42,203 nt of DNA from a virus: IMG/VR virus record IMGVR_UViG_3300005253_000060, positions 1 to 42,203 of that record; one strand, 5' to 3'. Position 1 is the first letter of the stretch. Each line of letters opens with the position of its first letter. Below, in pieces: positions 272 through 42,203 of this stretch. The notes under the pieces were generated by a model, which saw only the letters and a program-made list of their open reading frames with translations, was not told the origin of the DNA and did not search any database. The position numbers and the translations under genes were made by a program.

Positions 272-760
272 TCAACGTCTCTTGGGCCGCCGACACACGA
301 AGCAATAGTGCCGGGCAGGGTGATTCGGGACGAAGCGAGAGAGACATTCGGGGTTGCGGCAAAAGCGAACAAGCGAATCGATGATCGCCCCTTCCGCATC
401 TGGATCCGTCAGAAGCATTGTGCCCCGAGTCGTCGCGAGCATGACTGGATTGGCGCCGTCCAACCTTGCGAGCTCAGCGAAAAGAGCCTGGCGGAACGGC
501 TCACCGGCTCGATAAGTGCCATTGCTGTTCCAGATCGAGACGATGTACCTGGGCGAATAGGGCTCGCCGCGGGCGCGTCGTCCCAGTACTTCCGCGGCCC
601 GCTTCCAGGCTCGCGGACCGGGCCGGATCCCCCAGGATCCAAAAAGCTCGGAGAGGCCGTCCCGAATGACCGAATTCGATAACTCGAAGGGTTTATCCAC
701 TTCGGCTACCGTGTCGTGCCTAGAATTGATTGACGCGCTTTGACGCATGTTAGAGATCAC
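272..760 (-). CDS. Zinc-ribbon protein of unknown function, 162 aa
   Basis: The C-terminal 30 residues form a zinc-ribbon-like motif (CRNPEC…YCFVC) followed by a basic tail RRPKRR. The middle is basic and Trp-containing and could bind nucleic acid. The start is a GTG at 760 whose GTGA overlaps the stop of the 35-aa gene upstream, which supports it over the ATG at 748. It belongs to the leftward early operon. I do not recognise the family; a DNA- or RNA-binding accessory protein is an inference from the zinc motif and charge only. Confidence 0.65.
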   Translation of the reverse strand: MISNMRQSASINSRHDTVAEVDKPFELSNSVIRDGLSELFGSWGIRPGPRAWKRAAEVLGRRARGEPYSPRYIVSIWNSNGTYRAGEPFRQALFAELARLDGANPVMLATTRGTMLLTDPDAEGAIIDSLVRFCRNPECLSRFVPNHPARHYCFVCRRPKRR

Positions 761-864
761 TCGTGAACCGCAGATTTCCTCTCACGGAGCAGATCGAAGC
801 GGTGCCGCACCCAATCCCTGAACATCCACCAGCGCACACGGTATCTAATCGGTAGTCTCATCAT
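757..864 (-). CDS. Very small basic protein, 35 aa
   Basis: A short open frame starting ATGATG at 864, read as MMRLPIRYRVRWWMF and so on, rich in Arg and Trp. Its ATG overlaps the TGA of the 98-aa gene (ATGA) and its own TGA overlaps the GTG of the 162-aa gene (GTGA). Perfect 4-nt coupling at both ends, filling what would otherwise be a gap in a gapless operon, is the main evidence that it is real. Function unknown. Confidence 0.6.
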   Translation of the reverse strand: MMRLPIRYRVRWWMFRDWVRHRFDLLRERKSAVHE

Positions 865-1157
865 GCTTTCTCTGCGAGGGCGACGAGCTTTTGGGCCAAC
901 GGTCCATTACGCACTACCCGCCTCCATTCGGTTTTCGTAATCTCTCCAACATAAAGCCTTATGCACGCTTGTTCAATTTCCTCTAGCTTCTCCAACCCCT
1001 CCAACCGCTGTTCGAGGGCGGCTGTGGCTTCGAGCGCTGTGACAGCTTTCCGAACCACCCACGAAGGAACCTCTAGGTCAATCCCGTCTTGAGCAGGGCG
1101 CGGTAGCAAACATTGACGCAAATGCCCTAACGCCTGTTCTGCTAGTTTGTCAGTCAT
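861..1157 (-). CDS. Hypothetical protein, 98 aa
   Basis: An acidic, helical protein. The middle, roughly residues 40-65, is rich in Leu and Glu and may form a short coiled coil (ALEQRLEGLEKLEEIEQ). There is no membrane segment or recognised motif. Its start overlaps the stop of the zinc-ribbon gene by 4 nt and its stop overlaps the next start by 4 nt, so it is translationally coupled on both sides in the leftward operon. Function unknown. Confidence 0.6.
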   Translation of the reverse strand: MTDKLAEQALGHLRQCLLPRPAQDGIDLEVPSWVVRKAVTALEATAALEQRLEGLEKLEEIEQACIRLYVGEITKTEWRRVVRNGPLAQKLVALAEKA

Positions 1158-1360
1158 GCTTCCTCCTCCTGCTCATCGGAGCCATAGCTGCCAGTCGTCA
1201 GGATCTCTTCTGCCTCACTCATCAGGATCAGTTCTCCGATGGCTTCGAGAAGGCACTGCGCGCAGAGCTTCCCCGGTTTGCTCGTGCGCGGCAGCATGAC
1301 GACCCCAAACGAACCGCAGTCTCGGCACCGGATGCTGTAGTCGAATTCCACTGTGCTCAT
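1154..1360 (-). CDS. Small zinc-ribbon protein, 68 aa
   Basis: Two CxxC pairs (CRDC at about residue 12 and CAQC at about residue 33) form a four-cysteine zinc ribbon, followed by a strongly acidic tail ending DEQEEEA. Such small ribbons are common in phage early operons, where they often act as protein or nucleic-acid adaptors. A ribosome-binding AAGGG lies 8 nt before the ATG. Partner and role unknown. Confidence 0.65.
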   Translation of the reverse strand: MSTVEFDYSIRCRDCGSFGVVMLPRTSKPGKLCAQCLLEAIGELILMSEAEEILTTGSYGSDEQEEEA

Positions 1361-1381
1361 GCTAACTACCCTTATCGAAAC

Positions 1382-1693
1382 CTAAAAGTGCCTACTGATA
1401 AGCTCGATCATTGTCAAGTCGCGCTCGCTGAGGCGGTATACCTCGCCAGTGACAATATGCTCCGCGAGCAGGGTGAAGAACTCATGGCGCTCCACGTGCT
1501 TTGCTCCCCGTTCCTTGAAGTTTGCGAGGGGGCTTCCTCCGGTCACTTGCAGATCATCTTTCAATCCCCCAGCCTCAAGGTTTTGAACCTGCAAGCTATA
1601 CCACTCCGCGCGCTCATAGTGATGCCCCGCCTTGGTTCTCAAATGCACAACTAGCTCTGCCGCGTCAAAGTCGAAATGCAATCCTTCAATCAT
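1382..1693 (-). CDS. Hypothetical protein, 103 aa
   Basis: A soluble, His-rich protein of mixed strand and helix character with no signal peptide, membrane segment or recognised motif. A strong ribosome-binding site (GGAGG, 5 nt spacing) precedes the ATG at 1693, which is unusual in this operon where most starts rely on stop-start overlap. Part of the leftward early operon. Function unknown. Confidence 0.6.
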   Translation of the reverse strand: MIEGLHFDFDAAELVVHLRTKAGHHYERAEWYSLQVQNLEAGGLKDDLQVTGGSPLANFKERGAKHVERHEFFTLLAEHIVTGEVYRLSERDLTMIELISRHF

Positions 1694-1728: not shown

Positions 1729-1824
1729 TCAATCTATGGCCCCAGCAACGGACACCCGATGCTTATGAGGTTCCATCACAAACAGGGGGGATTGTGAGGT
1801 TCGGGTGCCCGCGGCCAAGGTCAT
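1729..1824 (-). CDS. Possible 31-aa protein
   Basis: A short open frame whose ATG (1824) overlaps the TGA of the Mini-A gene (ATGA). It fills the 127-nt space between Mini-A and the 103-aa gene. The translation (MTLAAGTRTSQSPLF…) shows no motif. Only the 4-nt coupling supports it; otherwise this stretch would be an intergenic spacer. Confidence 0.35.
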   Translation of the reverse strand: MTLAAGTRTSQSPLFVMEPHKHRVSVAGAID

Positions 1825-2648
1825 GTGAGTAGTTCCAATGCGTTGCTGATACTTTGGCGTTCTTCCTCTTTTTGGTCATAGTAGACTGTCTGGGATTCCT
1901 CCGGCCATAACTGACGTAGCCGGTTTCTCACGATCTTACGTAAGCGTTCAATAGGCAGGGCCTCAACTTCCCATGCTCTAGCCCCATAAAGAGCTTCGTA
2001 TCCGGGCGTTCGACTATCGGTCGATTTCAAATCAAGGTGCGGAAGGCCTTGGGCCTGTTCCCAGGTCAGAGCCACTCGCTCAACCTCCCAGGACACTCCG
2101 AAGTCGGTTATTAGGTTCGTCTCCAAACTCTCATCAATCACCATACCGCTCGGATCATGATCACCTATGAACAGGACCCGCCGAACGTCTGTATTTAGAT
2201 CGAGGACAATCTTACGGATATGGGACAGCCCAGAGAATCCTCGCCCAGAGACCAATGGACATACGAACTCGTCCGCTATGTCCTCTATTGTCGGAACGAT
2301 CGTGTCTTTCTCGACCCAAAGCAGGCATCCGTGATCCGCCATCGGTGTGTAGTACAAGTGGGCATCCTCTGCAAAATCTGCCAGATTCTTCTCAGTGAAA
2401 TTTCGCTGATAGACTCGCCCGACATCAACTATCCAAGCCCACGGAATGACATTTCTGCGGCGACCCTGCTCCAACGCGGTCTGTATGGCTTTATATGATC
2501 TTCGCTTGGTGCCCTTCTGATCTGGCGGAAGCCAACCCTCGGAGATCGCTACGTAATAGACTTGGCGGACGGTCTGTGGGTGGAATGCGGACAAGACCGC
2601 AGCCGCCCAATCTATTCGCTCGCTAAGTGATTTGCTACCAGTTGTCAT
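1821..2648 (-). CDS. Spo11 / topoisomerase VI subunit A-like protein (Mini-A)
   Basis: A 275-aa protein with both halves of a type IIB topoisomerase A subunit. Residues 26-32 read TVRQVYY, matching the active-site Tyr motif of Spo11 (TVRxxFY); Tyr32 is the expected residue forming the covalent DNA link. The Toprim metal site is complete: Glu113 in WVEKDT and Asp163/Asp165 in GDHDPSG, plus the intervening SGRGFSG loop at 134-140. Proteins of this size without a B subunit (Mini-A) are known in mobile elements; no GHKL ATPase B subunit is seen in this genome. The inferred activity is DNA cleavage with 5' covalent attachment. It is coupled by ATGA to the DUF1064 nuclease gene and lies downstream of sbcD/sbcC. 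A DNA-binding Toprim protein lacking cleavage activity is the alternative. Confidence 0.8.
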   Translation of the reverse strand: MTTGSKSLSERIDWAAAVLSAFHPQTVRQVYYVAISEGWLPPDQKGTKRRSYKAIQTALEQGRRRNVIPWAWIVDVGRVYQRNFTEKNLADFAEDAHLYYTPMADHGCLLWVEKDTIVPTIEDIADEFVCPLVSGRGFSGLSHIRKIVLDLNTDVRRVLFIGDHDPSGMVIDESLETNLITDFGVSWEVERVALTWEQAQGLPHLDLKSTDSRTPGYEALYGARAWEVEALPIERLRKIVRNRLRQLWPEESQTVYYDQKEEERQSISNALELLT

Positions 2649-2956
2649 ATCTCCTCAACCTCGATGTCATGAATTGCGAGCATCAACCTCTTCTTGAGTT
2701 TGTAGATCTGGGTGCGGACTCCCTTTACGTCAACGACCATCTCTCGACCCAGCTCATTGTCGAAGTATTTGAAGTCCGCGAAATAATTGCAGATGTGCGT
2801 GCCGTCGATCTCCAGCTTGAACTTGGGTTGCGTTTCCAGATCCCGAATGATGCCGGCCTGCTGCATGGCCTTGAGGACCTTGTAATGCCTTGCCTCTTTT
2901 TTTGAATGGAAAAAGATACCGTCCACACGCTGAGGAATATTGCTAAACTTGCTCAT
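2645..2956 (-). CDS. DUF1064 family phage nuclease, 103 aa
   Basis: Matches the DUF1064 pattern from end to end: an N-terminal VDGIFFHSKKEARHYKVLK segment, then LETQPKFKLEI, YFADFKYF, and VVDVKGVRT. DUF1064 proteins are small PD-(D/E)XK-type phage nucleases; the Asp of ADFKY and the DVK of VVDVKG are the expected metal and catalytic residues. The gene overlaps the ASCH gene by 4 nt upstream and Mini-A by 4 nt downstream, so it is made together with the recombination proteins. It could process branched or broken DNA made by them (inference). Confidence 0.82.
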   Translation of the reverse strand: MSKFSNIPQRVDGIFFHSKKEARHYKVLKAMQQAGIIRDLETQPKFKLEIDGTHICNYFADFKYFDNELGREMVVDVKGVRTQIYKLKKRLMLAIHDIEVEEI

Positions 2957-3384
2957 CTTGCGAGCTCAAACTCCAATACCCACACTTCGGGATTGTCGTC
3001 CCACCGCTGGCCATTGAGTGTATGGATGCCATCCCAAAGCATCTCGAATTGCTGCCTTAGATCTGAAACCGCGGCGTGTTCTCGATGATAGGTGACCAAC
3101 CCTTCAGATGTGCAATCCTCCGCCGAGATTTCTTGGAGCTGTTCTTTGCGAATGGCAATCAAGCGAATCCGTCCGAGAGATGATTTGCCGCGACCAGACT
3201 GAACGGCATAGTCCTTTCCGACTTCCCAACGCAATCGGTTCCGCGCATCCGTGACTAATGCGGTCGGATAAAACGACCCGGCAGCTCCTGGCTGCGCAAA
3301 TGCTATATCGCCAGGCTTGACTAGTCTTCGGGTTTGAGTTTTCGTACTATCAAGAACGTATCGGTGAGTCTCTTTGAAGATCAT
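2953..3384 (-). CDS. ASCH-domain protein, 143 aa
   Basis: The pattern is typical of phage ASCH proteins: MIFKETHRYVLDSTKTQTRR at the start, YAVQSGRGKSSLGRIRL in the middle (about residues 59-75), EEISAEDC-like ISAEDCTSEGL, and a final NPEVWVLEFEL. ASCH is a small beta-barrel fold thought to bind RNA or modified nucleobases. GGAGG stands 5 nt before the ATG. It sits 14 nt after sbcC and overlaps the nuclease gene. A modified-base reader or hydrolase role is possible but cannot be shown from sequence. Confidence 0.8.
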   Translation of the reverse strand: MIFKETHRYVLDSTKTQTRRLVKPGDIAFAQPGAAGSFYPTALVTDARNRLRWEVGKDYAVQSGRGKSSLGRIRLIAIRKEQLQEISAEDCTSEGLVTYHREHAAVSDLRQQFEMLWDGIHTLNGQRWDDNPEVWVLEFELAR

Positions 3385-3398
3385 TCAAGCCTCCATCG

Positions 3399-5489
3399 TT
3401 ACGCGATCCTGAACTGCGATCCATCTGGGTGCTTCTCGATCTCGATCCGGTCCGGGAAGGCGTCCTTGAGCTCCTCGATGTGGGTGATGACCAGGATCCG
3501 CTCGAAGTCGTCCTGAATGCTGTGGATGGCGGCGACTAGATGATCGCGACCCTGCGCGTCCTGGCTGCCGAATCCTTCGTCGATGAACAGGCTCCGGAGC
3601 TGGGCGCCTGCGCGCCTGGCCAGCAATCTCGAGAGCGCGATGCGCAATGCGAAATCGATGCGGAAGCTTTCACCGCCACTGTAGAGCTCGTAGGGACGGC
3701 TGCCGAGCTCGTCGGAGATCACGATGTCAAGCGCTTCGCGCGTCTCGCCAGTCTTGATTTCGCGCTGGGTTTCAATGCGCACGTGCATTCGGCCGTCGGT
3801 CATGCGGCTGAGCAGCTCATTGGCAGATCGCTCGAGCTCTGGAACCGCGGTCTCAATGATCATGGCCGGCACGCCTGTCTTGCTAAATGCCTTCCGGAGC
3901 TCGTCGTAAATCCCTAGATCGTCGGCCGTCTCGTCTCGGGAGTCCCGCAGATCCTTCTGGCTTCCCTCCAATTGCTCAAGCGCTTCCAGCTTCTGCTTGG
4001 TGCTGCCGACCCGCTGATCCGCGGTGCGGCGTTCCTTTCGCAACCGCTCGAGATCTCCCTCACTCAGCGATCTCTTTCCGAGCAGTTCTCTAGCCTCGCT
4101 AATCTTCTCGTTCAGCTCATCCGTTTCCTCCGACGCTACCGTCTGCTCAACTTTCCACTGTTGCATTTGGACTATCAGTGAGTCCATGCGTTCCCGCGCC
4201 TCGCCCGCGCGCTCGAGCGTGACCTGCAACTCGCCGACCTGCTTCTCGAGCTTCGAGCGGCCCTTGAGATCCCGGTCAAGTTTCTTCTTTTGGCTGTCGA
4301 GCTCGGCCAGCTGCTGATCGAATTCATCAATCCGGATCTGATTGGCCCGGCGATCGTCGCGCAAGCCTTGTAACTCATGTTCGATCTCTGCCGCGACCTC
4401 GGCCCGGTGCTCCTCGGTCAATGGTTCACCGCAGGTCGGACAGACCGGCTCAGTCGCTGATTGGAGTGTGGCCATCCGTTCCTTCAAGGGCGCGGCGGCA
4501 GGTGCCATGGCTTTATTGGCGCCCTTCAAAGATCCGATCTCCTCAGCTATTGCAGCTCGTCGTGTGAGCAACTCTTCGCGCTCTACCTCGAGCGGCGCCA
4601 GGCGACCGAGCCGGTCCTCTACGTCTTGCATCGCTGTCCGAATAGCATCCTCATCTGCCTGTGCCTCGGCCTTATCGCGCTGCTTTTCTGCGTCCGCGAT
4701 CTGCTTTTTCAAAGCTCTGATCTTCGTCGTGAGTCTGGCCAATTGATCGCTCAAGTCCGAAAGGGTGTCGTCGGCTTTCTTCAGGCTCGCCCATTCCTTC
4801 TCAGCGGCCTGCAGTTCTTCGTCAATTTCGCCGGCGCTAACCTCCGCGATGGCTAGTTCATCTTCAAGATCATCCCGCTTTGCGAGCTCGGTCTCGATCT
4901 CTGCGAGTTTCGAGTCAAGCCGGGAGAGCTCCGACTTCGCCATGGCGACGCGTTTCTTGGCGCGGTCCTCATAGTCCTCCCAGATCGAGAGCCCGAGAAT
5001 GTTGCCCAGGATCTGCTTACGCTGAGAGGGGGTCTTGGTCGTGAACTCATCGGCGCGGCCTTGAGCCAGCATGGCGGAGTTGATGAACGTGTCGTAGTCC
5101 AGGTGCAGCAGGTCGTCGATCTTGGATTGCGTTTCTTTGATAGTGGCGCCGGAGAGGCCTTGCCAATCTCCGGCACCGTTGGATGATTGCAGTTCGAGCA
5201 ATGACGCGCCGCGCTTGCCAGCTTTGCGCTGACGGATTACGCGGTAGTGGGCGCCGTCCTGCCGGAATACCAGTGCGACGCGCATATTGTCCTGCCCCTG
5301 GTGGATCAGCTCGTCCGCTGAATTGGATCGAGCCTTGCCCCAGAGCGACCATGTGATCGCGTCTAAGATTGAAGACTTGCCGGCGCCGTTGGGCCCAGCC
5401 AGGCAGGCCACATGGATACCATTCAGGACCAGCGGATCCGGATCCCGATAGGCCAGGAAGTTCTGAAGTTCTAACTCTTCGGGGATCAC
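3399..5489 (-). CDS. sbcC: SbcC/Rad50-type DNA repair ATPase
   Basis: A 696-aa SMC-like ATPase. Walker A is AGPNGAGKSS (residues 31-40). Two coiled-coil arms, about 180-345 and 355-560, flank a zinc hook CPTC (Cys350, Cys353). The ABC signature YSGGESFR and Walker B LFIDEGFGSQD are near the C-terminus, followed by the switch-His motif ITHIEEL. With SbcD it forms an ATP-driven nuclease acting on DNA ends, hairpins and protein-blocked ends. The arms are shorter than in bacterial SbcC (about 1,000 aa), nearer the size of T4 gp46. It starts at GTG 5489, overlapping the previous stop as GTGA. Confidence 0.95.
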   Translation of the reverse strand: MIPEELELQNFLAYRDPDPLVLNGIHVACLAGPNGAGKSSILDAITWSLWGKARSNSADELIHQGQDNMRVALVFRQDGAHYRVIRQRKAGKRGASLLELQSSNGAGDWQGLSGATIKETQSKIDDLLHLDYDTFINSAMLAQGRADEFTTKTPSQRKQILGNILGLSIWEDYEDRAKKRVAMAKSELSRLDSKLAEIETELAKRDDLEDELAIAEVSAGEIDEELQAAEKEWASLKKADDTLSDLSDQLARLTTKIRALKKQIADAEKQRDKAEAQADEDAIRTAMQDVEDRLGRLAPLEVEREELLTRRAAIAEEIGSLKGANKAMAPAAAPLKERMATLQSATEPVCPTCGEPLTEEHRAEVAAEIEHELQGLRDDRRANQIRIDEFDQQLAELDSQKKKLDRDLKGRSKLEKQVGELQVTLERAGEARERMDSLIVQMQQWKVEQTVASEETDELNEKISEARELLGKRSLSEGDLERLRKERRTADQRVGSTKQKLEALEQLEGSQKDLRDSRDETADDLGIYDELRKAFSKTGVPAMIIETAVPELERSANELLSRMTDGRMHVRIETQREIKTGETREALDIVISDELGSRPYELYSGGESFRIDFALRIALSRLLARRAGAQLRSLFIDEGFGSQDAQGRDHLVAAIHSIQDDFERILVITHIEELKDAFPDRIEIEKHPDGSQFRIA

Positions 5490-5857
5490 CGGGCGGCGAT
5501 CTCGAATTCCTGTAATTGGCCATACATGGCATTCACATATTCCTTTGGTATTTGATAATGATCAGGATCAGCTCCAACTTCAGAGGCATTTCCGCAAATG
5601 CTTGTGCCTTGCTCGACCAGTGCTTTCAGCTTGGTCAAGATATTAGAAACGCGCTCAGTTGGGCCATCGCCTAGCTCGATCGGTGGAAGTGGTAGACGTT
5701 GGATTTCTGTCTCGCATTCATCCAGCTTGGCTTCGAGAGCGGCGAAATCTCGAATAATCAAGTTCAAGTCTCCAGTACCAAGCTCGATCGATCCACCGCT
5801 CTTCTGTGCTCTGCGCTCAATCCGTCTCAAAAATATGAGTCCAGCGCTCTCGCTCAT
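5486..5857 (-). CDS. Unknown 123-aa protein encoded between sbcD and sbcC
   Basis: The protein is mostly helical with heptad-like Leu/Ile spacing around residues 25-55 and 65-90. It has no membrane segment or catalytic motif. Its start overlaps the sbcD stop (ATGA) and its stop overlaps the sbcC start (GTGA), so all three proteins should be made in similar amounts. Position between the two subunits of a complex suggests a third subunit or regulator of SbcCD (inference); no known family is recognised. Confidence 0.65.
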   Translation of the reverse strand: MSESAGLIFLRRIERRAQKSGGSIELGTGDLNLIIRDFAALEAKLDECETEIQRLPLPPIELGDGPTERVSNILTKLKALVEQGTSICGNASEVGADPDHYQIPKEYVNAMYGQLQEFEIAAR

Positions 5858-7065
5858 AGCAATAACTCCTCCGCCCGCTCGACCAGCACTTCAATCCGAT
5901 CCGGGCTCATATCCTTCGACTGAAAATAGGTCTCCAATAATTGCAGTGGGGTGAGGGTCTCAACCGCCAGATCTCCGAGGCGCGTGCGTGCTTCTTCCTC
6001 GATCTCTCGGATGATGCTCAGGCTGGATACGTTCGGAAGCGATGCTTGGATCTCCCGGTCGTTGAGCGCCGGAGACTGATCGGGGCGCATGGTGAAAATG
6101 ATCCGTACTACGGCCTCATCGAACGCCAACTCTGGCAGCATCTCAAGAAACGATTCGGTCGGATCATCGATTTCGGCCGCGGTCGTGTCGATCCGGATCG
6201 TGACAAATTCGCGGGCCTGGACCGGGACAAACGACCAGGATGTCTTACCGTGCTCAAGCTCGACCCAGCAGAAGCCCTTCTCTTCCTCCTGCTCACCGAA
6301 GTCGATCCGCTCGAGAGAGCCGCTATAGACAACGGGCGGCTGTTCGCTGAGGACCTGATGTTTATGAATGTGACCGAGGGCAACGTAATCCCAGGCTGGA
6401 TCCGCAAGCACATCGAGATTGACGGCGACGTCGCGGCCGATCATGACCGCGCGCTCCGATCCGAACACAGCCTGGTCCACAGTGAAATGGCCGGCCAGGA
6501 CGCGGGGCATATCATGTTCGTCGGCCTGGCGGGCCAGGTCCTTGACGATCGCGGTCACGGCCTCGCGCAATGCGAGCTCGAGCTCCTCGATCGACTTGCC
6601 CTGATTGTCTCTATTGGAGAGCAAGCGGTTCCGCATGGGATACGGGAGCCAGGCTAGATAGACAGGCCCACTGCTCGTCTCAACGATCTGCCCTTCGGGT
6701 CGATTGCCGAGGATTACACCTGGAACATCGAGCGCGCCAAAGATGTCGATGCTGTTGGCGCGCGATGCGATGCCCGGGGCGTCGTGATTGCCCACGAGTA
6801 GAAGGGTGGGGACTTCATCTGCCAGGCGCTTGATGCGGCGGGCGAACTCCCGCAAAAGCGTAGGGTTCGGATCACGTTTGTGGAAAGCATCTCCCGCAAA
6901 GACCACCAGGTCGGCCTTTTCGTTGAGTGCGTAGTCAACGACCTCATCAAGGCGTTCAAGGAAATCGCCGACGCGGGTCGATAGGCCGGTGGCAGGATCG
7001 GGTCGGCTATGACTTTCGACGCCCAGGTGAAGGTCGGCAAAATGCAGCATCTTTATTCCTGACAT
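5854..7065 (-). CDS. sbcD: SbcD/Mre11-type nuclease
   Basis: A calcineurin-like metallophosphoesterase with every Mre11 motif in order: ADLHLG near the start, FAGDAFHKRD at about residue 60, GNHD at about residue 95, AGHF near 195 and GHIHKHQ near 230. These supply the two-metal site for 3'-5' exonuclease and endonuclease cleavage. The C-terminal 130 residues fit the capping and SbcC-binding region. The start is uncertain: a TTG at 7071 overlaps the recT stop, the ATG at 7065 is used here, and an ATG at 7050 has the better-spaced AGGA. Partner of the sbcC product. Confidence 0.94.
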   Translation of the reverse strand: MSGIKMLHFADLHLGVESHSRPDPATGLSTRVGDFLERLDEVVDYALNEKADLVVFAGDAFHKRDPNPTLLREFARRIKRLADEVPTLLLVGNHDAPGIASRANSIDIFGALDVPGVILGNRPEGQIVETSSGPVYLAWLPYPMRNRLLSNRDNQGKSIEELELALREAVTAIVKDLARQADEHDMPRVLAGHFTVDQAVFGSERAVMIGRDVAVNLDVLADPAWDYVALGHIHKHQVLSEQPPVVYSGSLERIDFGEQEEEKGFCWVELEHGKTSWSFVPVQAREFVTIRIDTTAAEIDDPTESFLEMLPELAFDEAVVRIIFTMRPDQSPALNDREIQASLPNVSSLSIIREIEEEARTRLGDLAVETLTPLQLLETYFQSKDMSPDRIEVLVERAEELLL

Positions 7066-7067
7066 GA

Positions 7068-8177
7068 TCAATCGGCCTTGCCCATAGCTTTGGCCATCGC
7101 CATCGCTTCCGCTGCGGCCTCGACATCCTTGAGAAGGATCCGGCCTTCCTTGCCCGTACCCTGGATCGCTCTCAATTGAATGTCGTGCTTGCCTGCGAAC
7201 TCTATTGCGCCGTCGGTAGCATCGATCGACGACTCCGGAGCCAGGCCATCTAGCGGGCCATACTTGTTGATAATGAAAATTAGTGAATCTGCCCAGGTGC
7301 TGAGTTCCTTTTTAATGGCCTGCCCCTCGTCGGTATCGACGCCGAAGTGATTGGCGATTAGCCAGAATTGCGTGGAGCCGATCTCGTAGGGTTTCTTCGT
7401 CGCTAGATCGCGAGCTTCCTTCAGCATGTCGAGGGCGCTAGTATCTTCCGCAGTTTCCTCTTCCTTACCGTCCTCGCTACCGAAGAGAGTCTCCGTGGCC
7501 TCGGTCGCCTCCTCCTCGCCATTGGATCCATTCTCGGGATCTTCTTCCAGCGTCCACTCGCCCGCGATGATGGGGCCGGTTGGTTCACTCGGGACGGCAA
7601 ACGGAAGATCGAAGCGCCGCTTCAAGGCATCAGCCTCAGATCGTTTCATGGCTACCTGGATTGGATCCATTCGAGTCGACTCGCCGTCCTTGATGTATCC
7701 GACGCCGGTCGAGTAGGGTCGCTTACCGAGCACTTCCGGGATGATCTCTACTGGCACACCATCTTCTTTCAATCTCTTCCAACCGTCCGAATAGGTCCGG
7801 ATCGTTTCACTGTCGCGGATGATGCACTTGAAGGCCAGGGCCTTGTCTGGGATCATGAACAGGTTACGTTCGTCGGGATCCGTGATTTCTAGAAACTCAG
7901 TCCAGAAGCTGCCGTCGATCTGCTGGCGGGCAGCTTTGCGCAATCCCTTGATGCCAGCCATGAGACCGGATCCAGGGATGTACCAGATCTCGCCGTTGAA
8001 TGGATCGAGGCCGTGCGCGATGGCGCCCTGGGCGAGGGCGAGTGCTTCATTCTCATCGAGCCTCTTGCCGCCCGGTGCCATTAGCTGGACGCGCCTGGCG
8101 ATCTCGCGGAGCTCCTTACGTTCGCCCCATGGCGCAATTCGGGATTCGTTCGTGGGAACTATGGCTGTCTTATCCAT
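7068..8177 (-). CDS. recT: RecT-type single-strand annealing protein with an E3-binding-like C-terminal domain
   Basis: Residues 20-215 fit the RecT/Redβ family: a helical start, then AHGLDPFNGEIWYIPG (55-69) and GLMAGIKGLRKAA (71-83). Such proteins coat single-stranded DNA and anneal it to complementary strands. An acidic linker (about 215-250) leads to a second helical stretch, and residues 318-357 resemble the peripheral-subunit (E3) binding fold (ATDGAIEF…IQGTGKEGRILLKDVEAA). The family usually ends soon after the annealing core, so this 369-aa form is extended. It overlaps the first operon gene by 8 nt and is next to sbcD, forming an annealing-plus-nuclease pair. Confidence 0.85.
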   Translation of the reverse strand: MDKTAIVPTNESRIAPWGERKELREIARRVQLMAPGGKRLDENEALALAQGAIAHGLDPFNGEIWYIPGSGLMAGIKGLRKAARQQIDGSFWTEFLEITDPDERNLFMIPDKALAFKCIIRDSETIRTYSDGWKRLKEDGVPVEIIPEVLGKRPYSTGVGYIKDGESTRMDPIQVAMKRSEADALKRRFDLPFAVPSEPTGPIIAGEWTLEEDPENGSNGEEEATEATETLFGSEDGKEEETAEDTSALDMLKEARDLATKKPYEIGSTQFWLIANHFGVDTDEGQAIKKELSTWADSLIFIINKYGPLDGLAPESSIDATDGAIEFAGKHDIQLRAIQGTGKEGRILLKDVEAAAEAMAMAKAMGKAD

Positions 8178-8385
8178 CTGAATTCATCCTTCCGAGCAGA
8201 GACTCGATGTCCTCGAGCTCCTGTCCAACGTCGATCTGCCGAAGTCCGCCGACGAATATCGGCAGCGGGCAGTTGTTGTGGAGCGCCCGATTATGATCTT
8301 CGGCGTCCCTGGTTGTACGGGTTCCGTGTAGGCGGGTAAGTGTGTCTTTGATGTTGTCCAGCATTTCGATCTCAAGTTGTGTCAT
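8170..8385 (-). CDS. First gene of leftward operon, 71-aa unknown protein
   Basis: The start is set at the ATG at 8385 (MTQLEIEML), which has AAGGAG 6 nt upstream. A longer frame back to a TTG at 8445 would include the leftward promoter, so it is unlikely to be translated. The protein is helical with an acidic C-terminal part and no recognised motif. As the first gene of the operon, overlapping recT by 8 nt, it may be an early regulator or a recombination accessory (inference). Confidence 0.6.
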   Translation of the reverse strand: MTQLEIEMLDNIKDTLTRLHGTRTTRDAEDHNRALHNNCPLPIFVGGLRQIDVGQELEDIESLLGRMNSDG

Positions 8386-8401
8386 TTTCATCTCCTTGAA
8401 C

Positions 8402-8504
8402 TTGCCCCAAGGGTACTCTATTTTTACCTTGTCGTCAAGCGCCAATTTCCTGCGGTAAATATCGGGATGCCCTAGGCCAATATTGATACTTGACCCCAGG
8501 GCAA
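8402..8504. promoter_or_regulatory. Candidate repressor operators between divergent promoters
   Basis: Three imperfect inverted repeats share a TTGxCC…GGGcAA theme: TTGCCCCAAGGGTA at 8402-8415, TGCCCTAGGCCA at 8468-8479 and TTGACCCCAGGGCAA at 8490-8504. The first overlaps the leftward -10 and the third overlaps the rightward -35. That is the arrangement expected if the HTH protein encoded next door represses both early transcription and itself. The match between copies is only partial. Confidence 0.4.
8410..8438 (-). promoter_or_regulatory. Leftward early promoter
   Basis: On the minus strand, TTGACG (8438-8433), a 17-nt spacer, then TACCCT (8415-8410), close to the sigma-70 consensus. Transcription would start near 8403, about 18 nt before the ATG at 8385, and drive the whole recombination operon. 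The -10 lies in a candidate operator. Confidence 0.6.
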
Positions 8505-8518
8505 TCTTCGGCTATTCT
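8490..8518 (+). promoter_or_regulatory. Repressor promoter
   Basis: TTGACC (8490-8495), a 17-nt spacer and TATTCT (8513-8518) make a good sigma-70-type promoter. Transcription would begin near 8525, giving a leader of about 48 nt before the repressor ATG at 8573. The -35 lies in a candidate operator, which would allow autoregulation. Confidence 0.65.
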
Positions 8519-8572
8519 TATGACATGGAGCGAGAGATGGATTTAATAATCGCAAAAAAGGAGGATTCAGAA

Positions 8573-8797
8573 ATGGGAGCCATCCGCGTGATGGTTCCTC
8601 AGCTCCTGGCCGAGAAAAAGGTCAAGGCGAAGGACTTGGAAAAAGCCATTGGTGTAAGCAAGCCAACGGCGCTTCGTCTTGCCAAGGGTGAAATGCCCTG
8701 GCTCCGCCCCGATCAGCTCGTGAGGTTATGCGAGTACTTTGAAGTTGATCTGAGTGAGATCCTGATCTATCGGCCAGACGGCGACGGGGACCGCTAG
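8573..8797 (+). CDS. Cro/C1-type HTH repressor, 74 aa
   Basis: The protein is essentially one helix-turn-helix domain: LAEKKVKAKDLEKAIGVSKP then TALRLAKGEM and LVRLCEYFEVDLSEILIY, the pattern of small XRE-family (HTH_26-like) regulators. The start is fixed by AAGGAGG 8 nt before the ATG at 8573; a frame extends further upstream to 8483 but crosses the promoter. It is the only rightward gene between two leftward blocks and faces the early operon promoter. It is therefore the best candidate for the prophage repressor, although it lacks the C-terminal oligomerisation or peptidase domain of lambda CI. Confidence 0.8.
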   Translation: MGAIRVMVPQLLAEKKVKAKDLEKAIGVSKPTALRLAKGEMPWLRPDQLVRLCEYFEVDLSEILIYRPDGDGDR

Positions 8798-8819
8798 CTT
8801 AAAAGCTAGACGGCCCCGC
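8787..8819. terminator. Hairpin at the end of the repressor gene
   Basis: A strong stem-loop spans the repressor stop codon. The inner stem is CTAGCTT paired with AAGCTAG around two bases, and an imperfect outer stem pairs GGGGaCCG with CGGCCCC. No run of T follows, so intrinsic termination on the plus strand is uncertain. The 91 nt from 8820 to 8910 hold only a small CGCCC…GGGCG hairpin (about 8891-8904) and no gene that I can see. Confidence 0.4.
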
Positions 8820-8910
8820 TAAAAGTCACGAAGCCGCCTAACCTTAGTACAACCTGCCGGTCACTGGAGAGTGTGGGCAGGTACACCAACGCCCCTAAGG
8901 GCGGGGATGC

Positions 8911-9585
8911 CTAATCTTGAAAAGCTGGATGCACAGTGGCGCTTCCTGCGACAAGATAGATGTTGTCGGAAAGGAAGTTGTCCCAATTGATTTGTTCATA
9001 TTCGGCTCGATCGAAGATGAGCCTGAATACCTCTGCCTCTTCGGCATTTCCATAGACGTCAACCATTGAGAAACTCCCGCGCAGGACCACTCTTTCAAAT
9101 TGCATGCCGCTTTCAGCGATGGTCTGGAGAATGGTCGATGCGTCGCGCTTGGCTCCAGAAATGCGGAATCCATCTGTGATGTTGTCGTTGATTGCCCATC
9201 GAACCGTGATGATCCCCGCCCCTTCGTTAATCTCGACAGCTTCCAGGCGGGGCACATTTCGATTTGCTGAACTCAGTTCATCTTCGATGAAAAGTTTCAG
9301 CGCAACGCTGGGCTCAAGAGTGTTGGAAGGGGCCGGTAGGGGTGTAGGAGCTGAGGTAGGTTCGAAAGTGCCTGCAGCAGCTCCTTCAGTCTGCGCTATG
9401 ACAGTCTCTATTGCAGAATCTGAGATCGCGGCTGTTGGGCTTTCAGGCTCATCGGTCTGTGGCGAAAGCAGAGTTACGAGGAGTGAGATCGTGCAACAGC
9501 CGCCTAATAATCCGAGCCCTATGACGAGGCGTGAACGGCGCCGTGTCTTCTTTTTTTTGCTTTCCAACCCGACCTCCTTGGTCAT
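8911..9585 (-). CDS. Membrane-anchored protein with Pro/Ser/Thr linker, likely lysogenic conversion gene
   Basis: A 224-aa protein in three parts: a basic N-terminus (KKKKTRRRSR), one membrane helix at about residues 20-41 (LVIGLGLLGGCCTISLLVTL), and a Pro/Ala/Ser/Thr-rich spacer to about residue 95. An exported domain of about 125 aa follows, containing VRWAINDN and ending near INWDNFLSDNIYLVAGS. The layout and linker resemble exported Chloroflexota proteins of unknown function. It stands alone between the repressor and attP and is not needed for any phage step I can name, so a prophage-expressed surface or exclusion function is inferred. Its start codon is about 20 nt from the tRNA-like attP. 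Confidence 0.6.
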   Translation of the reverse strand: MTKEVGLESKKKKTRRRSRLVIGLGLLGGCCTISLLVTLLSPQTDEPESPTAAISDSAIETVIAQTEGAAAGTFEPTSAPTPLPAPSNTLEPSVALKLFIEDELSSANRNVPRLEAVEINEGAGIITVRWAINDNITDGFRISGAKRDASTILQTIAESGMQFERVVLRGSFSMVDVYGNAEEAEVFRLIFDRAEYEQINWDNFLSDNIYLVAGSATVHPAFQD

Positions 9586-9605
9586 CGAACCTTAACAATT
9601 TATCA

Positions 9606-9682
9606 GGCGCCCCCGGAGAGACTCGAACTCCCAACCTACGCCTAGCACACGCGATTAAGTTAGGGGGACTAGCTCTCCGGGG
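9606..9682 (-). other. Probable attP within a tRNA 3'-half mimic
   Basis: Read leftward, the right part is the 3' half of a class I tRNA: variable loop AGGTT, T-arm GGGAG-TTCGAGT-CTCTC, acceptor strand CGGGGGC, discriminator G, then CC. The 5' half has no D-arm or GG D-loop, so this is not a working tRNA. A 10-bp perfect inverted repeat (CCCCGGAGAG) lies at 9611-9620 and 9673-9682, the second copy pairing with the acceptor/T-stem strand. Integrases often recombine into tRNA 3' ends, and int begins 10 bp away. The tRNA identity is unclear; the G73 discriminator and GGCGT stem suggest an arginine type. Confidence 0.6.
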
Positions 9683-9691
9683 ACTCATTGC

Positions 9692-10621
9692 TTACTTGAC
9701 TCCCATGATTCTGGACATTGGGCTGTAGGGCTCAAAGTCCATCGGAGTGAGAGCCTGTGAGTAGCGCTCCACCTCCTTCACGGATCTCCAGCGACCGGCG
9801 AGTTGTACTAGCCGAGTAGGCGCACCGCCCTGCAAACTCAACGTGGCGAAGCTCCTACGAAAGTCGTGCGGGGAAACCAATCCAATTCCAGACTCCTTTC
9901 CTAGATGTCGGAGGATCGCACCCAGCCCGTTTCGCGTGAGCGAGGTTCCGGGCTTGTTTCCTCCTACGGATACGAAGACGGTGGAAGCGCGGGCATAGCT
10001 CTCCCTCACCGCGAGCCAGTTCGCCATTGCCGCCTGCGTGTAACGGCCAAACACCGCACCGCCGATACGACCTCCCTTTATGCGCACAACCAGCGATTGA
10101 GCTTCAAGATCAAAGTGCGCCAGCTCTAGCCGACAGATTTCCGAAGCTCTCAATCCCGTGTCGAGCAAGAGACTGATGAGGGCGAGGTCTCGGACGCCTT
10201 TAGGCTGGCTGGTATCCAGGTGACCGAGCAATTGATCCACCTGGGCCACGTTCAACGTGCGTTGAGGGGTGGGGTGGCGCTTCGGGAAGGGGATTGTTTC
10301 TGCGGGGTTGTCCTGGCCAATGCACCATCTGAAGAACAGCTTTAGGGCACAGATGGCGACGTGCTGAGTGGCGGGGCTCAAGTTTCTAGCTCGTATCCAG
10401 TCTCGGAGGTCCTCGGTGTTGACCAGATGCGGATCATGAATGTCAAAGTTTCCAAGCCACATGATCGCGTTGTAGAGGTGGCGTTGGTAGTGCTCGATCG
10501 TTCGTTTAGAAAGGGTGGATTCTTTCTCTAATATGAAACTTTCAAGCAAATCAAACATCTCCTTTTCCTCACTAGTTGGGGACATCTCTTCACCTTCCTT
10601 GGCGGGCTGCGGACTCGGCAT
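9692..10621 (-). CDS. int: Tyrosine recombinase (phage integrase)
   Basis: A 309-aa protein with an N-terminal SAM-like core-binding domain (about 20-110) and a catalytic domain carrying Arg158 (TGLRASE), Lys182 (IKGGR), His252 and Arg255 (SPHDFRRSFAT), Trp278 in the second-His position (GRWRS) and nucleophile Tyr287 (VERYSQ). The set is complete. It catalyses site-specific integration and excision between attP and host attB. There is no arm-binding N-terminal domain of lambda type, so it resembles the simpler XerD-like integrases. A second start at 10585 also has a good ribosome-binding site. It is transcribed away from the replication block from its own promoter. Confidence 0.93.
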   Translation of the reverse strand: MPSPQPAKEGEEMSPTSEEKEMFDLLESFILEKESTLSKRTIEHYQRHLYNAIMWLGNFDIHDPHLVNTEDLRDWIRARNLSPATQHVAICALKLFFRWCIGQDNPAETIPFPKRHPTPQRTLNVAQVDQLLGHLDTSQPKGVRDLALISLLLDTGLRASEICRLELAHFDLEAQSLVVRIKGGRIGGAVFGRYTQAAMANWLAVRESYARASTVFVSVGGNKPGTSLTRNGLGAILRHLGKESGIGLVSPHDFRRSFATLSLQGGAPTRLVQLAGRWRSVKEVERYSQALTPMDFEPYSPMSRIMGVK

Positions 10622-31395: not shown

Positions 31396-33888
31396 ATGGC
31401 AGGCGAAAAGATAAAAGCCGTGCTTGAATACCAGGGACGAGAGCTGGATCTCAATGATCTCACTGCGGGTCTATATACCTTAGCGGAGGGCTTTATACCA
31501 CCGCCGGTCTCGCTGGTTCCGACACTCAGCCGGGGGACTGCAGCTAACATTCGCGGAGGCGCAGAGCTCGCGAGTATGAAAGCCGATAATCGTCCCTGGG
31601 ATTTCGCGGTCAATGTACGGGGCGCGAGCGAGGCGGAGATTACCGGCGGCATCCGCCGACTCAACCAGTTCTTGCGGCAGGCCACTGGCGAACGACCTGT
31701 CAATTTGCTCTATCGCAGCAATCGAGACGTGGGCTTCGAGCCGCTGTGGGGATCCTACGGTGCCGACCTGCAGTACGAGATCGTCTTCGGCAAAGCGATG
31801 GCCACGCTTGCCTACCCAACCGGCGTCACACCGAATCTTATTATTCCAGAATGCCGAATCTCGCTTGAGGTGAAGCCCTACGCTTTGAGCCAGCGGCAGC
31901 GAATGGCATTCGCTCAAGGTGGGATCCTAGAGGACTTGATCGGGGCAATCGACGGTTTCAGCCGCGGGACATTCATTCCCGAAGCGACGACCAACAAGAT
32001 GACTAACCCGATCTTCGGCAACGCGACGTTCGACAACGCTTGGACCGCCGGAGCGAACATCGTCAAAGCGGAAAACACGGACCGGAAGTTCATCACTCAT
32101 GGCAAGTCTAGCGCGAAGCTCTCCGCGGTAGCCGCAACAACAAACACCTTCACTCAGTCGATCGCTGTCGGGGACACGGTCCAGTATTTCTTTTCCGCCT
32201 ACGTCAAGCTACCAGGCGGAGGGGTCCCGACCAGTTCCGATCTGCAACTCCATTATGGCAGCGACCAGACGACTACCTTCCGGTCGGTGGGGGATGGCTG
32301 GTACCGAATGACGGTGGAGGTAACGGGCGTGGTAGCAGCGACGAACACCGGCGTAGTCGTGAAGAGCGGGCGGACCGTTTATGTGGACGGCTTCCAGATT
32401 GAGAAGAAAGTGTCCACCGAGATAGAACAATTCACATCGGTCGCTCATGGAGATCTCCTGGACTGCGCCTGGACCGGGACGTCACACGCTTCGACAACGA
32501 CCCGAATACGCACCCAGCTTTCGGTCAATAAAGATGATGCTTTCGACGTTTCTGAGGGGACCGTGCAAGTGGTCGTGAAGTGGGAGACCGACAACACGCG
32601 GGCCTCCTCCGCTTTCTTCTTCTTCCTGAGCGGGTCGATCCAAGCCTCGTTTTCGTCGGGCAGCGACCGGATTCAATTCTCAGACGGCACCGACACGGTG
32701 CTCGACGATGGCAACACCTTCTCACCAGGCGACATCTGGATTCTGCATTTCGTCTTCGGACCGAACGGGAAGAAGATTTATCTGGATGGGGTGGAGCTCG
32801 CGACGACCGCTACTTACACGCCGAATGCAGGAACCGGAGACCTGTTCATAGGATGCACGGGCTTGGTTGGACAAAACTTCTGGGGATCCCTCATGGATTT
32901 CGCTACTTACGCCCAGGCTATGAGTGCCGCCGAGGTGCTGGCCGATTTCAATAACATCGACAAGCAAGTGGAGGACGACCGACGACTGGCGCCCATACCC
33001 TGGTTCTGGACGCGTAACGGTGATGGTCTTATCGAGAATTGCAACGACGGGACCAAGCTCAACTACGCGGTGGCGGGTGGAATCCCCGGATCCGCTCCGG
33101 CCCTTACGCGGCTTAAAGTTAAGCCCGACACGATCTTCACCGGGGCATCCGACATTTGGCTCAGCCTCTATCCACAAGATGAATTCATCGACCCAGACAA
33201 CAACATTTGGGATGACGAACAGGGGACCGTGGAGGCCGGAGCTTGCGGGGGCCAGGTCAATACGATCAACATCTCGGGGTCAGCTTCGGTCACCATAGGA
33301 ATCACGAACATAAAACGTTATGAGTTGGTCGCTGGAAAAGACATCTACCTTCTCATCCGCTTGCGAGACATCGGGACCAACCTGCTGGCACGTTTCGAGT
33401 ACGAAATGTCGGGGAGCCAATACGAAACCGACTTCAAAGCGCTGGCGGCCACGACCACTCAGAAGCTTTTTGTCTTGGGCCCGCTACCTTTCCTGTCCTA
33501 CAAGAGCATCGTGGCGGAATTCGGCGACGCCTTCATGGATGAAGTTATTGATGCCGATGTGACATTGAAGCGGACCACAGGAACAGCGGCCAACGACTGC
33601 TTAATCGACTTCGTTATGCTGGTGGCCAGACCATTCGTTCTCATCCAGAACGACCTGAACGTGAGCAATTATTATTTGTTGGAGGATGTCCAGTGCGTTG
33701 AACGGGTTGCCAGTGGCGATCAGTTCGTAGAGTTTGTTTCCACGCTGGGGGATGTCATCGAATTCGAGCCCGAGAAGACCAACATTCTGACATCCATGAT
33801 GGGTCGGGATGGCGAGGATCACGAAGTCGACGACGACGACTTCGATTATTTGGATGTCGTGGTCACCCCGCGTTGGGAGCTTTTGTGA
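31396..33888 (+). CDS. Distal tail-like protein with carbohydrate-binding and LamG domains
   Basis: An 830-aa protein. Residues 1-165 fit a distal tail (Dit) core; 190-340 look like a CBM-type jelly roll (FDNAWTAGANIVKAEN, YFFSAYVKLPGG, DGWYRMTVEVTG); 360-530 look like a LamG/concanavalin domain (KIYLDGVELATTATY); the rest is a second Dit-like part ending VVVTPRWELL. Dit proteins enlarged with sugar-binding domains bind host surface polysaccharides. It follows the tape measure directly. Confidence 0.7.
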   Translation: MAGEKIKAVLEYQGRELDLNDLTAGLYTLAEGFIPPPVSLVPTLSRGTAANIRGGAELASMKADNRPWDFAVNVRGASEAEITGGIRRLNQFLRQATGERPVNLLYRSNRDVGFEPLWGSYGADLQYEIVFGKAMATLAYPTGVTPNLIIPECRISLEVKPYALSQRQRMAFAQGGILEDLIGAIDGFSRGTFIPEATTNKMTNPIFGNATFDNAWTAGANIVKAENTDRKFITHGKSSAKLSAVAATTNTFTQSIAVGDTVQYFFSAYVKLPGGGVPTSSDLQLHYGSDQTTTFRSVGDGWYRMTVEVTGVVAATNTGVVVKSGRTVYVDGFQIEKKVSTEIEQFTSVAHGDLLDCAWTGTSHASTTTRIRTQLSVNKDDAFDVSEGTVQVVVKWETDNTRASSAFFFFLSGSIQASFSSGSDRIQFSDGTDTVLDDGNTFSPGDIWILHFVFGPNGKKIYLDGVELATTATYTPNAGTGDLFIGCTGLVGQNFWGSLMDFATYAQAMSAAEVLADFNNIDKQVEDDRRLAPIPWFWTRNGDGLIENCNDGTKLNYAVAGGIPGSAPALTRLKVKPDTIFTGASDIWLSLYPQDEFIDPDNNIWDDEQGTVEAGACGGQVNTINISGSASVTIGITNIKRYELVAGKDIYLLIRLRDIGTNLLARFEYEMSGSQYETDFKALAATTTQKLFVLGPLPFLSYKSIVAEFGDAFMDEVIDADVTLKRTTGTAANDCLIDFVMLVARPFVLIQNDLNVSNYYLLEDVQCVERVASGDQFVEFVSTLGDVIEFEPEKTNILTSMMGRDGEDHEVDDDDFDYLDVVVTPRWELL

Positions 33889-38392: not shown

Positions 38393-39724
38393 ATGAAACG
38401 CATAGGCTCAGGCATTGCCGCTGTCTTATTGATTGGGGCATTCTTCGCTCTTTCAACAAGAGCACAGGGTCCGAGCTTGCCTCCCGGCGAATATGACTTA
38501 GAGGCGGGGCAGTATATGTTCAATCAGCACCCCGAATCATTGCTCAGTCTTTTGGTGATGACGCTAACGCCCGTTCCTTCTGAGACACCTACTACCACAG
38601 ATACGCCGGTGCCTCCAACGAATACCCCCATACCTCCGAGTGCAACACTTATTTCTCCATCCGGGCATGATTCCGAGGTTTATCACGGACTATGGAACGG
38701 GCCGCTGGAACCCTTCGCAGGCGCGCCCTCCTGTCAATCTATGGGTGATACCAACTGTCACTGGAACCACACGCACAACGCTGACCCCTCCAGGTTGGAC
38801 TCTATCTTTGGACCAGTTGGAGCTTTATATGGCGGGCAAACGATTAGCTACCAGTGGCAGACGGGCACAGCGCCCAATCTCGAGAATCAGGTCAAACACG
38901 AAGGCTATAAATGGATGGTCCGCCAAGATGGGGCGGACGGCGACTGCCTCTTCTATGCAGGCCAAAACAATAATGCCGTGCATTGCGTTACAGACTTCCG
39001 AATCCAACAGCATGTAGTTGGTGGGCAGGTAGGTGTGCTTGTTCGGTTCCATTCCTACTGGGTTGAGATGCGCGTTTGTACGCTAGACCAATCTGTCTGT
39101 GGGATTGTCAAGACGGGCGGCCATAGCGATTTCGGTCTTTTACAGGTTGAAAGATACAGTAACTACGTGCCTCTTCCGGGCGACCCCCCCGAGTTTGCGG
39201 ACTGCACTCCGCAACAGTGTGCTTACCGGGGTCATAAATCGTCTCGTTTCTTCATCGATTTCAATCCATCACCTGCGCATAATGATCCACTTTGGTTTAA
39301 CGGCAGAGGATTATTTGGCTTCAATCAAATATCATTCTTTGCTTTTATCACTGAGGATGACTGGGGCGGAATTGACCCTGATGATCCCGCCGGTCCTGAA
39401 CACTTCCTCTGTCCAGATTGGCAGTGTAAGTTCAACCACTCGACACTTTTCGCATTTGAAGTTTATGCGACTGTTTCATCTGCCTTTGATCCTGATGGGG
39501 ATGGCATCGCAGACTTCTCAGGGTTCACAGACCGAAAAGGAAACGTTGTTGCGGATTGTGCGCCCCTTGGCCCCGATTGCGTACCCCTAGAGATTGCGGG
39601 AGTCCCCGTGGGGAACGCGGCATATGGCCCGAGCGGAAGATTCCAGTTCAATATGGGCTTCATCCCATTCGAGGAATACGACGTTTCGCCTCCGGGCGAA
39701 TGGTGGATTGAGTATCCGAACTGA
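38393..39724 (+). CDS. Secreted protein with Thr/Pro linker, host-like
   Basis: A 443-aa protein. Signal peptide MKRIGSGIAAVLLIGAFFAL with a likely cut after STRAQ. A linker at about 55-85 (TPVPSETPTTTDTPVPPTNT) leads to a Cys-rich globular domain with Asp/His/Trp motifs (HWNHTHNAD) and a calcium-loop-like DPDGDGIADFSG near residue 365. The linker style is typical of Chloroflexota exported proteins. It is probably a captured host gene used for lysogenic conversion or host contact; a tail fibre would not carry a signal peptide. Confidence 0.6.
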   Translation: MKRIGSGIAAVLLIGAFFALSTRAQGPSLPPGEYDLEAGQYMFNQHPESLLSLLVMTLTPVPSETPTTTDTPVPPTNTPIPPSATLISPSGHDSEVYHGLWNGPLEPFAGAPSCQSMGDTNCHWNHTHNADPSRLDSIFGPVGALYGGQTISYQWQTGTAPNLENQVKHEGYKWMVRQDGADGDCLFYAGQNNNAVHCVTDFRIQQHVVGGQVGVLVRFHSYWVEMRVCTLDQSVCGIVKTGGHSDFGLLQVERYSNYVPLPGDPPEFADCTPQQCAYRGHKSSRFFIDFNPSPAHNDPLWFNGRGLFGFNQISFFAFITEDDWGGIDPDDPAGPEHFLCPDWQCKFNHSTLFAFEVYATVSSAFDPDGDGIADFSGFTDRKGNVVADCAPLGPDCVPLEIAGVPVGNAAYGPSGRFQFNMGFIPFEEYDVSPPGEWWIEYPN

Positions 39725-41924: not shown

Positions 41925-42107
41925 GTGAACCCTCCCCTTCTCATCGCACCGTAAGCAGAACTCTTCTTCGGTTTTCCAAGTTGAAATCGTCATCCATTCG
42001 TGCCCAAATATAGCGCACCGAATTCGGGCAGCGATCATCGAAAGACTGAAGTAGATTCTCCCGATCTGGACGACCAAGAACACCGCCGCCGACATTGCGC
42101 GCATCAT
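41778..42107 (-). CDS. Zinc-motif protein with hydrophobic N-terminus, 109 aa
   Basis: Residues 3-28 are hydrophobic (AMSAAVFLVVQIGRIYFSLS). Residues 32-56 (CAIFGHEWMTISTW, then EFCLRC) resemble the short GHxW…CxRC motif of DUF1660-like phage proteins. After residue 61 the sequence changes to a soluble helical unit. An internal ATG at 41924 in the same frame has the repeated ribosome-binding cassette upstream, so two proteins may be made. ATGATG start, 7 nt after the cassette across the circle junction. Confidence 0.6.
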   Translation of the reverse strand: MMRAMSAAVFLVVQIGRIYFSLSMIAARIRCAIFGHEWMTISTWKTEEEFCLRCDEKGRVHMTQDKSPKTAEEAFREFHIAWFKLLEEIGNSTGAYKALNWLKRLFQKG

Positions 42108-42203
42108 ACGAATCTCCCCTTCTCATCCCTTCTGGCTTCTATTGTCTTCACCCAAATTGAATCTCGCCATAGCCCTGTCCATCTGCTCTATTGCATTCAC
42201 CAA
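42083..42203. repeat. Terminal direct repeat, right copy
   Basis: Identical to 1-121; see the left copy. Bases 42083-42107 encode the start of the zinc-motif gene and 42123-42203 the 3' part of the 70-aa gene, which is complete only at 41-253. Confidence 0.95.

Follow-up and report, generated by a model that had tools for sequence, protein, structure and literature searches.

A phage operon that joins a Spo11-like Mini-A gene to SbcCD and a likely RecT-type annealer: an occasional pairing

Recombination modules of the lambda Red and RecET type combine an annealer and a nuclease in one operon, and phages T4 (gp46/47) and T5 (D12/D13) encode forms of Mre11-Rad50. Another phage-encoded protein, the truncated Topo VI-A homologue Mini-A, occurs with an invariant tyrosine at some 150 phage, prophage and archaeal loci. 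As cited in PMC7614492 and PMC8185306, the family goes back to Takahashi et al. 2020, with Pseudomonas phage NP1 gp49 as an example. We analysed a viral genome of 42,203 nucleotides, IMG/VR record IMGVR_UViG_3300005253_000060 (“the window” below), in which Mini-A is the last gene of a leftward operon that also encodes SbcD, SbcC and a likely RecT-like annealer. The operon is thus of the annealer-plus-nuclease type, but SbcCD replaces the 5'-3' exonuclease of lambda Red and RecET, and Mini-A has been added. The pairing of Mini-A with SbcCD is real in this phage; a survey of Mini-A loci indicates, however, that it is occasional and not a general rule.

The operon consists of eight leftward open reading frames (ORFs) between 8445 and 1821, given here in the order of transcription:
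8170 to 8445, minus strand: p91, first operon gene, an ORF that shares 8 nt with the gene after it
7068 to 8177, minus strand: likely RecT-like single-strand annealing protein (sequence pattern; sub-threshold match to phrog_2780)
5854 to 7071, minus strand: SbcD/Mre11 nuclease (TIGR00619, phrog_100, PDB SbcD/Mre11, metal-site motifs)
5486 to 5857, minus strand: p123, between sbcD and sbcC, with a 4-nt overlap on each side
3399 to 5489, minus strand: SbcC/Rad50 ATPase, a short-coil form of 696 amino acids (phrog_77, zinc hook, PDB Rad50, motifs)
2953 to 3384, minus strand: ASCH-like small protein (motif only; phrog_874, a family without assigned function, 3e-18)
2645 to 2956, minus strand: DUF1064 nuclease, Holliday-junction-resolvase-like (PF06356, 1.6e-15; phrog_190 ‘Holliday junction resolvase’, 1.7e-27)
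1821 to 2648, minus strand: Mini-A, Topo VI-A/Spo11-like, 275 amino acids, with a 5Y-CAP tyrosine (Tyr32) and Toprim residues (E113, D163, D165)

Nearly all these ORFs are stop-start coupled. Besides the overlaps given above, RecT/SbcD, ASCH/DUF1064 and DUF1064/Mini-A overlap by 4 nt each, and a 14-nt space between SbcC and ASCH is the sole gap in the run. Coupling of this extent is far above chance and supports co-transcription, and the mostly stop-start coupled leftward operon described by an earlier, sequence-only reading of this DNA is indeed present; its first gene may start at 8445 instead of around 8385.

The identity of Mini-A is supported by several lines of evidence. The protein matches phrog_6247 (‘DNA topoisomerase’, 1.9e-31), and tblastn aligned it with the ‘DNA topoisomerase’ of phage NP1 (E=4e-14, 84% query coverage), the protein named Mini-A in the literature (PMC7614492). 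In a MAFFT motif alignment, R28, Y32, E113, D163 and D165 fall opposite the R, Y, E, D and D of archaeal Topo VI-A, whose M. mazei counterparts are R102, Y106, E202, D254 and D256 (PMC13040014). Judged by its WE-x-[DE]-A motif alone, E227 may correspond to the clasp residue E342. All 152 aligned homologues have Tyr32, and E113 and the DxD pair are kept too; GDHDPSGM had served as a search pattern, which inflates the conservation of D163 and D165 but not that of Tyr32. A PDB search with the Mini-A sequence returned nothing relevant; in contrast, when its AlphaFold model (pLDDT 89.2) was searched with Foldseek, the best PDB matches were Topo VI-A subunits (1d3y; probability 1.00, E 1.5e-4); the overall TM-score was modest (0.41). 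The earlier assignment of a Topo VI-A/Spo11-like protein to the operon is upheld by these matches. Judged from its sequence, Mini-A is a type IIB cleavage enzyme with complete catalytic residues, predicted by homology to cut DNA via Tyr32 as a dimer.

Mini-A shares with Topo VI-A and Spo11 the fold, the R-x-x-x-Y motif and the Toprim E and DxD residues, but it is shorter, its sequence relationship is barely detectable, and a B subunit was not found. The Topo VI-B (PF09239) and GHKL (PF02518) families are absent from the terminally repeated genome; membership in Topo VI or VIII was rejected for lack of an ATPase (GHKL) subunit or domain and of a B subunit. The same finding bears on a role of Mini-A as a DNA-topology, bending or nicking-closing enzyme that would reseal its breaks during replication, with SbcCD nearby by accident. 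Such a role would suit the Topo VI-A fold and the replication genes that adjoin Mini-A in many phages, and topo VIII shows weak ATP-independent relaxation or cleavage (PMC7614492). Strand passage, however, would call for the ATPase B subunit, and we regard this role as quite unlikely.

Relatives of Mini-A were detected in 70 cultured phage records, 54 viral contigs and 99 stretches of bacterial or archaeal genomes. Like NP1 Mini-A, the window protein is a phage-encoded, truncated Topo VI-A homologue that has the tyrosine and the Toprim residues and lacks a B subunit; unlike NP1 Mini-A, it belongs to an SbcCD operon and to a deep branch. Its median identity to the family is 25%, compared with 43% among the other members, and it is a deep outlier with one close relative, contig L002 (84% identity). 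Twenty-two family-conserved positions are altered, nearly all of them identically in L002, and 25 invariant columns are retained. In the tree, the branch that leads to both proteins is 7.2 changes per column long, which makes the exact placement of their clade unsure. Mini-A as a family was already known; the deep window/L002 clade and the operon with Mini-A, SbcCD and RecT add a new variation to it. Another very divergent Mini-A on a long branch was observed in a gammaproteobacterial contig (L127, 9965-10837).

The second component of the operon, SbcCD, is assigned with family models, PDB structures and complete motifs, which confirm the identities first given to both proteins. SbcD scores 134.6 bits against TIGR00619, above the curated cut-off of 77.65, and matches phrog_100 (8e-45) and PDB SbcD/Mre11 (1.9e-30); its metal-site motifs are DLH, GD, GNHD, H195 and GHIH. 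SbcC matches phrog_77 (6e-110), the zinc hook PF04423 (1.6e-8) and PDB Rad50 (1.7e-24), and scores 297 against TIGR00618, under the cut-off of 478.5. Its motifs comprise Walker A, CPTC, SGG and LFIDEGFGSQD, with Walker B and signature included. By these motifs, catalytic and hook alike, the pair appears intact. It shares them with SbcCD/Mre11-Rad50, the T4 and T5 forms included, and differs in the short coiled coil of SbcC and in the separation of the two genes by p123. This 123-amino-acid protein, left unassigned in the earlier reading, was compared with Pfam, PHROGs, NCBIfam and PADLOC and matched nothing in them.

In Wadjet/MksBEFG (JetD/MksG; PMC10123090), too, a cleaver related to Topo VI-A is encoded together with an SMC-like ATPase, and one may ask whether the two proteins form an anti-competitor system of the Wadjet or Gabija type, in which a TOPRIM cleaver and the ATPase would cut host, plasmid or rival phage DNA. 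A 47-residue stretch of Mini-A matches JetD marginally (E=0.011), and SbcC has a match to LmuB (1.5e-28). However, the 5Y-CAP tyrosine, which is missing from MksG (PMC10123090), is present in Mini-A, and JetD is not among the top structure matches of Mini-A. The partner in the window is Mre11-Rad50 and not JetABC: no JetABC or Lamassu partner genes were matched, and SbcC (phrog_77/TIGR00618, far above JetC) and SbcD fit their own families better. An anti-competitor function of this kind is therefore improbable, and Wadjet membership was rejected on account of Tyr32, the marginal JetD match and the missing JetABC partners.

The sequence-only reading had suggested asking whether Mini-A adjoins sbcCD above chance. 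The neighbour test was run with 48 Mini-A viral contigs and 42 control contigs chosen by a degenerate PolA DNA motif; control scans with the window SbcD, the window SbcC, terminase (mostly short contigs), helicase and PolA protein gave too few usable loci. SbcD was found in 9/48 Mini-A contigs and 10/42 controls (Fisher p=0.61), and SbcC in 13/48 and 11/42, respectively (p=1.0). Mini-A was found in none of the 42 controls, ten SbcD-bearing contigs included. Among cultured Mini-A phages, 2 of 17 (JWF and Lumi) carry SbcD, adjacent to Mini-A in neither; SbcD records from cultured phages are mostly large phages of Staphylococcus, Bacillus, Enterococcus and Listeria, while Mini-A is mostly found in other groups. 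A local SbcD profile, which recovers 8 of the 9 viral-contig SbcD records found by phrog_100, detected no SbcD within 10 kb of Mini-A at 80 cellular-genome loci, many of them short. Finally, sbcCD is absent from the 30.8-kb contig of L002. Such a link was not borne out, and a conserved Mini-A-sbcCD module was rejected as there is no enrichment over the PolA controls.

Adjacency of Mini-A and sbcCD was seen in two of the records that carry both, the window and contig L012. In the latter (6562-10614), Mini-A overlaps the N-terminal half of SbcC (CPLC hook), which is followed by an SbcD-like gene and then by the C-terminal half of SbcC. Comparison with random placement in the 12 records with both genes gave a weak closeness signal, with a combined p=0.023 that is driven by the window and L012 and includes the window, itself selected for adjacency; some closeness is expected anyway as both are early-region genes. 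In contigs under 75 kb, SbcD was detected in 5/38 with Mini-A and 0/27 controls (p=0.07, non-significant), and there may be a weak link in small phages; the window SbcCD belongs to a temperate phage of 42 kb, whereas all SbcD-positive PolA controls measure at least 75 kb. Two contigs (L010, 1743-5273; L061, 1614-4454) show SbcD and SbcC matches within one open frame of 1177 and 947 amino acids, respectively, which suggests fused Mre11-Rad50 proteins in Mini-A phages.

These data also bear on the proposal of a dedicated system of the Spo11-Mre11-Rad50 type, in which Mini-A would make programmed covalent breaks that SbcCD must release before RecT anneals the strands. The 4-nt coupling and the full active sites of all partners speak for it, as do the repeated adjacency in L012, the presence of SbcC within 7 kb of Mini-A in L010 and L040 and the trend in small contigs. 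The lack of overall enrichment, the absence of SbcCD from most cultured Mini-A phages and from the cellular loci, and a closest relative that has no sbcCD speak against it. As a conserved unit the system fails, since co-occurrence equals that of the PolA controls and the closest relative lacks sbcCD; for the window phage, a dedicated machine is rather unlikely. A more specific version, that the divergent Mini-A of this phage acts as a genuine prokaryotic Spo11, which makes covalent breaks with no B subunit and is released by the SbcCD of the operon before RecT anneals the ends, and that this arose more than once (in the window and in L012), seems unlikely as well.

Comparison with L002 reveals how Mini-A may travel. 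DNA identity between the window and L002 is 79% from the Mini-A ATG to 7 nt before the stop codon of the window gene, and the flanks are unrelated. The other local genes of L002 differ, and an ERF annealer is encoded about 2.5 kb upstream of Mini-A. Further Mini-A pairs share the gene without the flanks, although most close pairs do share flanks. Genes of replication and recombination, together with integrases, recur around Mini-A: within 7 kb of it, at 98 non-redundant loci, we detected integrases (16), SNF2-type helicase (11), PolA (8), Cas4-type exonuclease (5), SbcC (4) and RecA (4), and in NP1 Mini-A adjoins a Sak4 annealer gene. As read from these sequences, Mini-A moves as a single gene, independently of Mre11-Rad50, which makes the operon look like a recombination unit that gained an extra enzyme and not like a conserved meiosis-like machine. 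Gene-length transfer between otherwise unrelated phages, and the pairs without common flanks, might also be explained if Mini-A were a homing-like selfish gene that breaks genomes devoid of it and is copied by resident recombination genes. The common flanks of most close pairs indicate, however, vertical descent, and no sequence specificity is known; a selfish gene is highly improbable.

The explanation that we favour, with about an even chance of being right, is an early annealing-type recombination operon with SbcCD as likely partner of RecT, to which an independently acquired Mini-A has become opportunistically coupled. The RecT-like annealer, SbcCD and the DUF1064 protein would form a recombination and repair module that acts on phage DNA: SbcCD would open or trim ends, RecT would pair strands, and DUF1064 would resolve branches. 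We infer that, while the phage replicates or recombines, Mini-A, a Topo VI-A/Spo11-like dimer without B subunit, would cut duplex DNA by 5'-phosphotyrosyl transesterification. Cutting of host DNA and prophage mosaicism, also suggested by the earlier reading, are conjectural uses of such breaks. Breaks left unresealed would be open to processing by SbcCD and RecT, with no need for an obligate Spo11-Mre11-Rad50 machine. Since the RecT gene runs straight into that of SbcD, and none of the usual RecT-partner exonuclease families was seen in the window proteins scanned, we infer that SbcCD is the best candidate partner for RecT; no other end-processing nuclease was recognised. E. coli SbcCD cuts near protein-blocked DNA ends (PMC6265447), so the window SbcCD could release a stuck Mini-A. 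A chain from break to SbcCD to RecT is, by this analogy, biochemically plausible in the window phage, although the arrangement is not conserved.

Several points weigh against this explanation. SbcCD is described as a 3'-5' exonuclease and endonuclease, and is no classical annealer partner. Some small window genes lay outside the scan, so another exonuclease could have been overlooked. The assignment of RecT is weak by sequence. The 22 changed positions could have altered the activity of Mini-A, and the papers retrieved show no activity for any Mini-A and report none for archaeal Mini-A. A small phage with Mini-A, intact Mre11-Rad50 and a likely annealer is a compact system in which to ask whether a viral Spo11-like enzyme breaks DNA and is then taken off by Mre11-Rad50 as in meiosis. 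As the pairing is the exception in our survey, caution is advised against seeing a meiosis-like module in every such operon.

The remaining operon proteins are assigned with varying support. The product of 7068-8177 is likely a RecT annealer by sequence pattern, as proposed before, but its match to the RecT-like family phrog_2780 is sub-threshold (E=0.038) and Pfam RecT gave no hit. A single-sequence structure model was poor (pLDDT 38), and a 50% identical relative is found in Manatee Spring phages. Its C-terminus (residues 327-353) matches the E3/peripheral-subunit-binding domain PF02817 (6.2e-6), unusual in an annealer. The PF06356 and phrog_190 matches secure the DUF1064 nuclease. For the protein previously called ASCH, the motif is present, but Pfam ASCH was not hit and phrog_874 gives no function. 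ASCH-like genes recur near Mini-A: L010 encodes an ASCH-domain protein (PF04266; 10980-11510), whose relatives lie close to Mini-A in L014 and L028, and the window has its own. No family match was found for p91 in Pfam or PHROGs.

Two further leftward features lie on either side of the operon:
272 to 1693, minus strand: downstream small genes, ORFs at 1382-1693, 1154-1360, 861-1157 and 272-760
9692 to 10621, minus strand: tyrosine integrase (PF00589, 4.5e-29), indicative of a temperate lifestyle

The small genes, which start 127 nt past Mini-A and gave no family matches, probably share the early region with the operon. An exact direct terminal repeat of 121 bp (1-121 and 42083-42203) makes it probable that the genome is complete and was assembled as a circle, and the first 25 kb have no close relative in the phage collection. 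With its integrase, terminase, portal, capsid and tape-measure genes, the window is a temperate tailed phage of about 42 kb. Directly adjoining the integrase gene, a minus-strand segment around 9608-9681 resembles the 3' part of a tRNA (T-arm and acceptor pattern); ARAGORN and Rfam made no tRNA call there, and by its pattern the segment is probably the core of an attP site at a tRNA gene. Between regulator and integrase, 8911-9585 encodes a 224-amino-acid protein with an N-terminal membrane segment and a match to phrog_8263 (a family without assigned function), possibly a lysogenic-conversion gene. Laminin-G/concanavalin-like lectin domains are found in two late proteins (31396-33888 and 39724-41322), which are probably receptor-binding.

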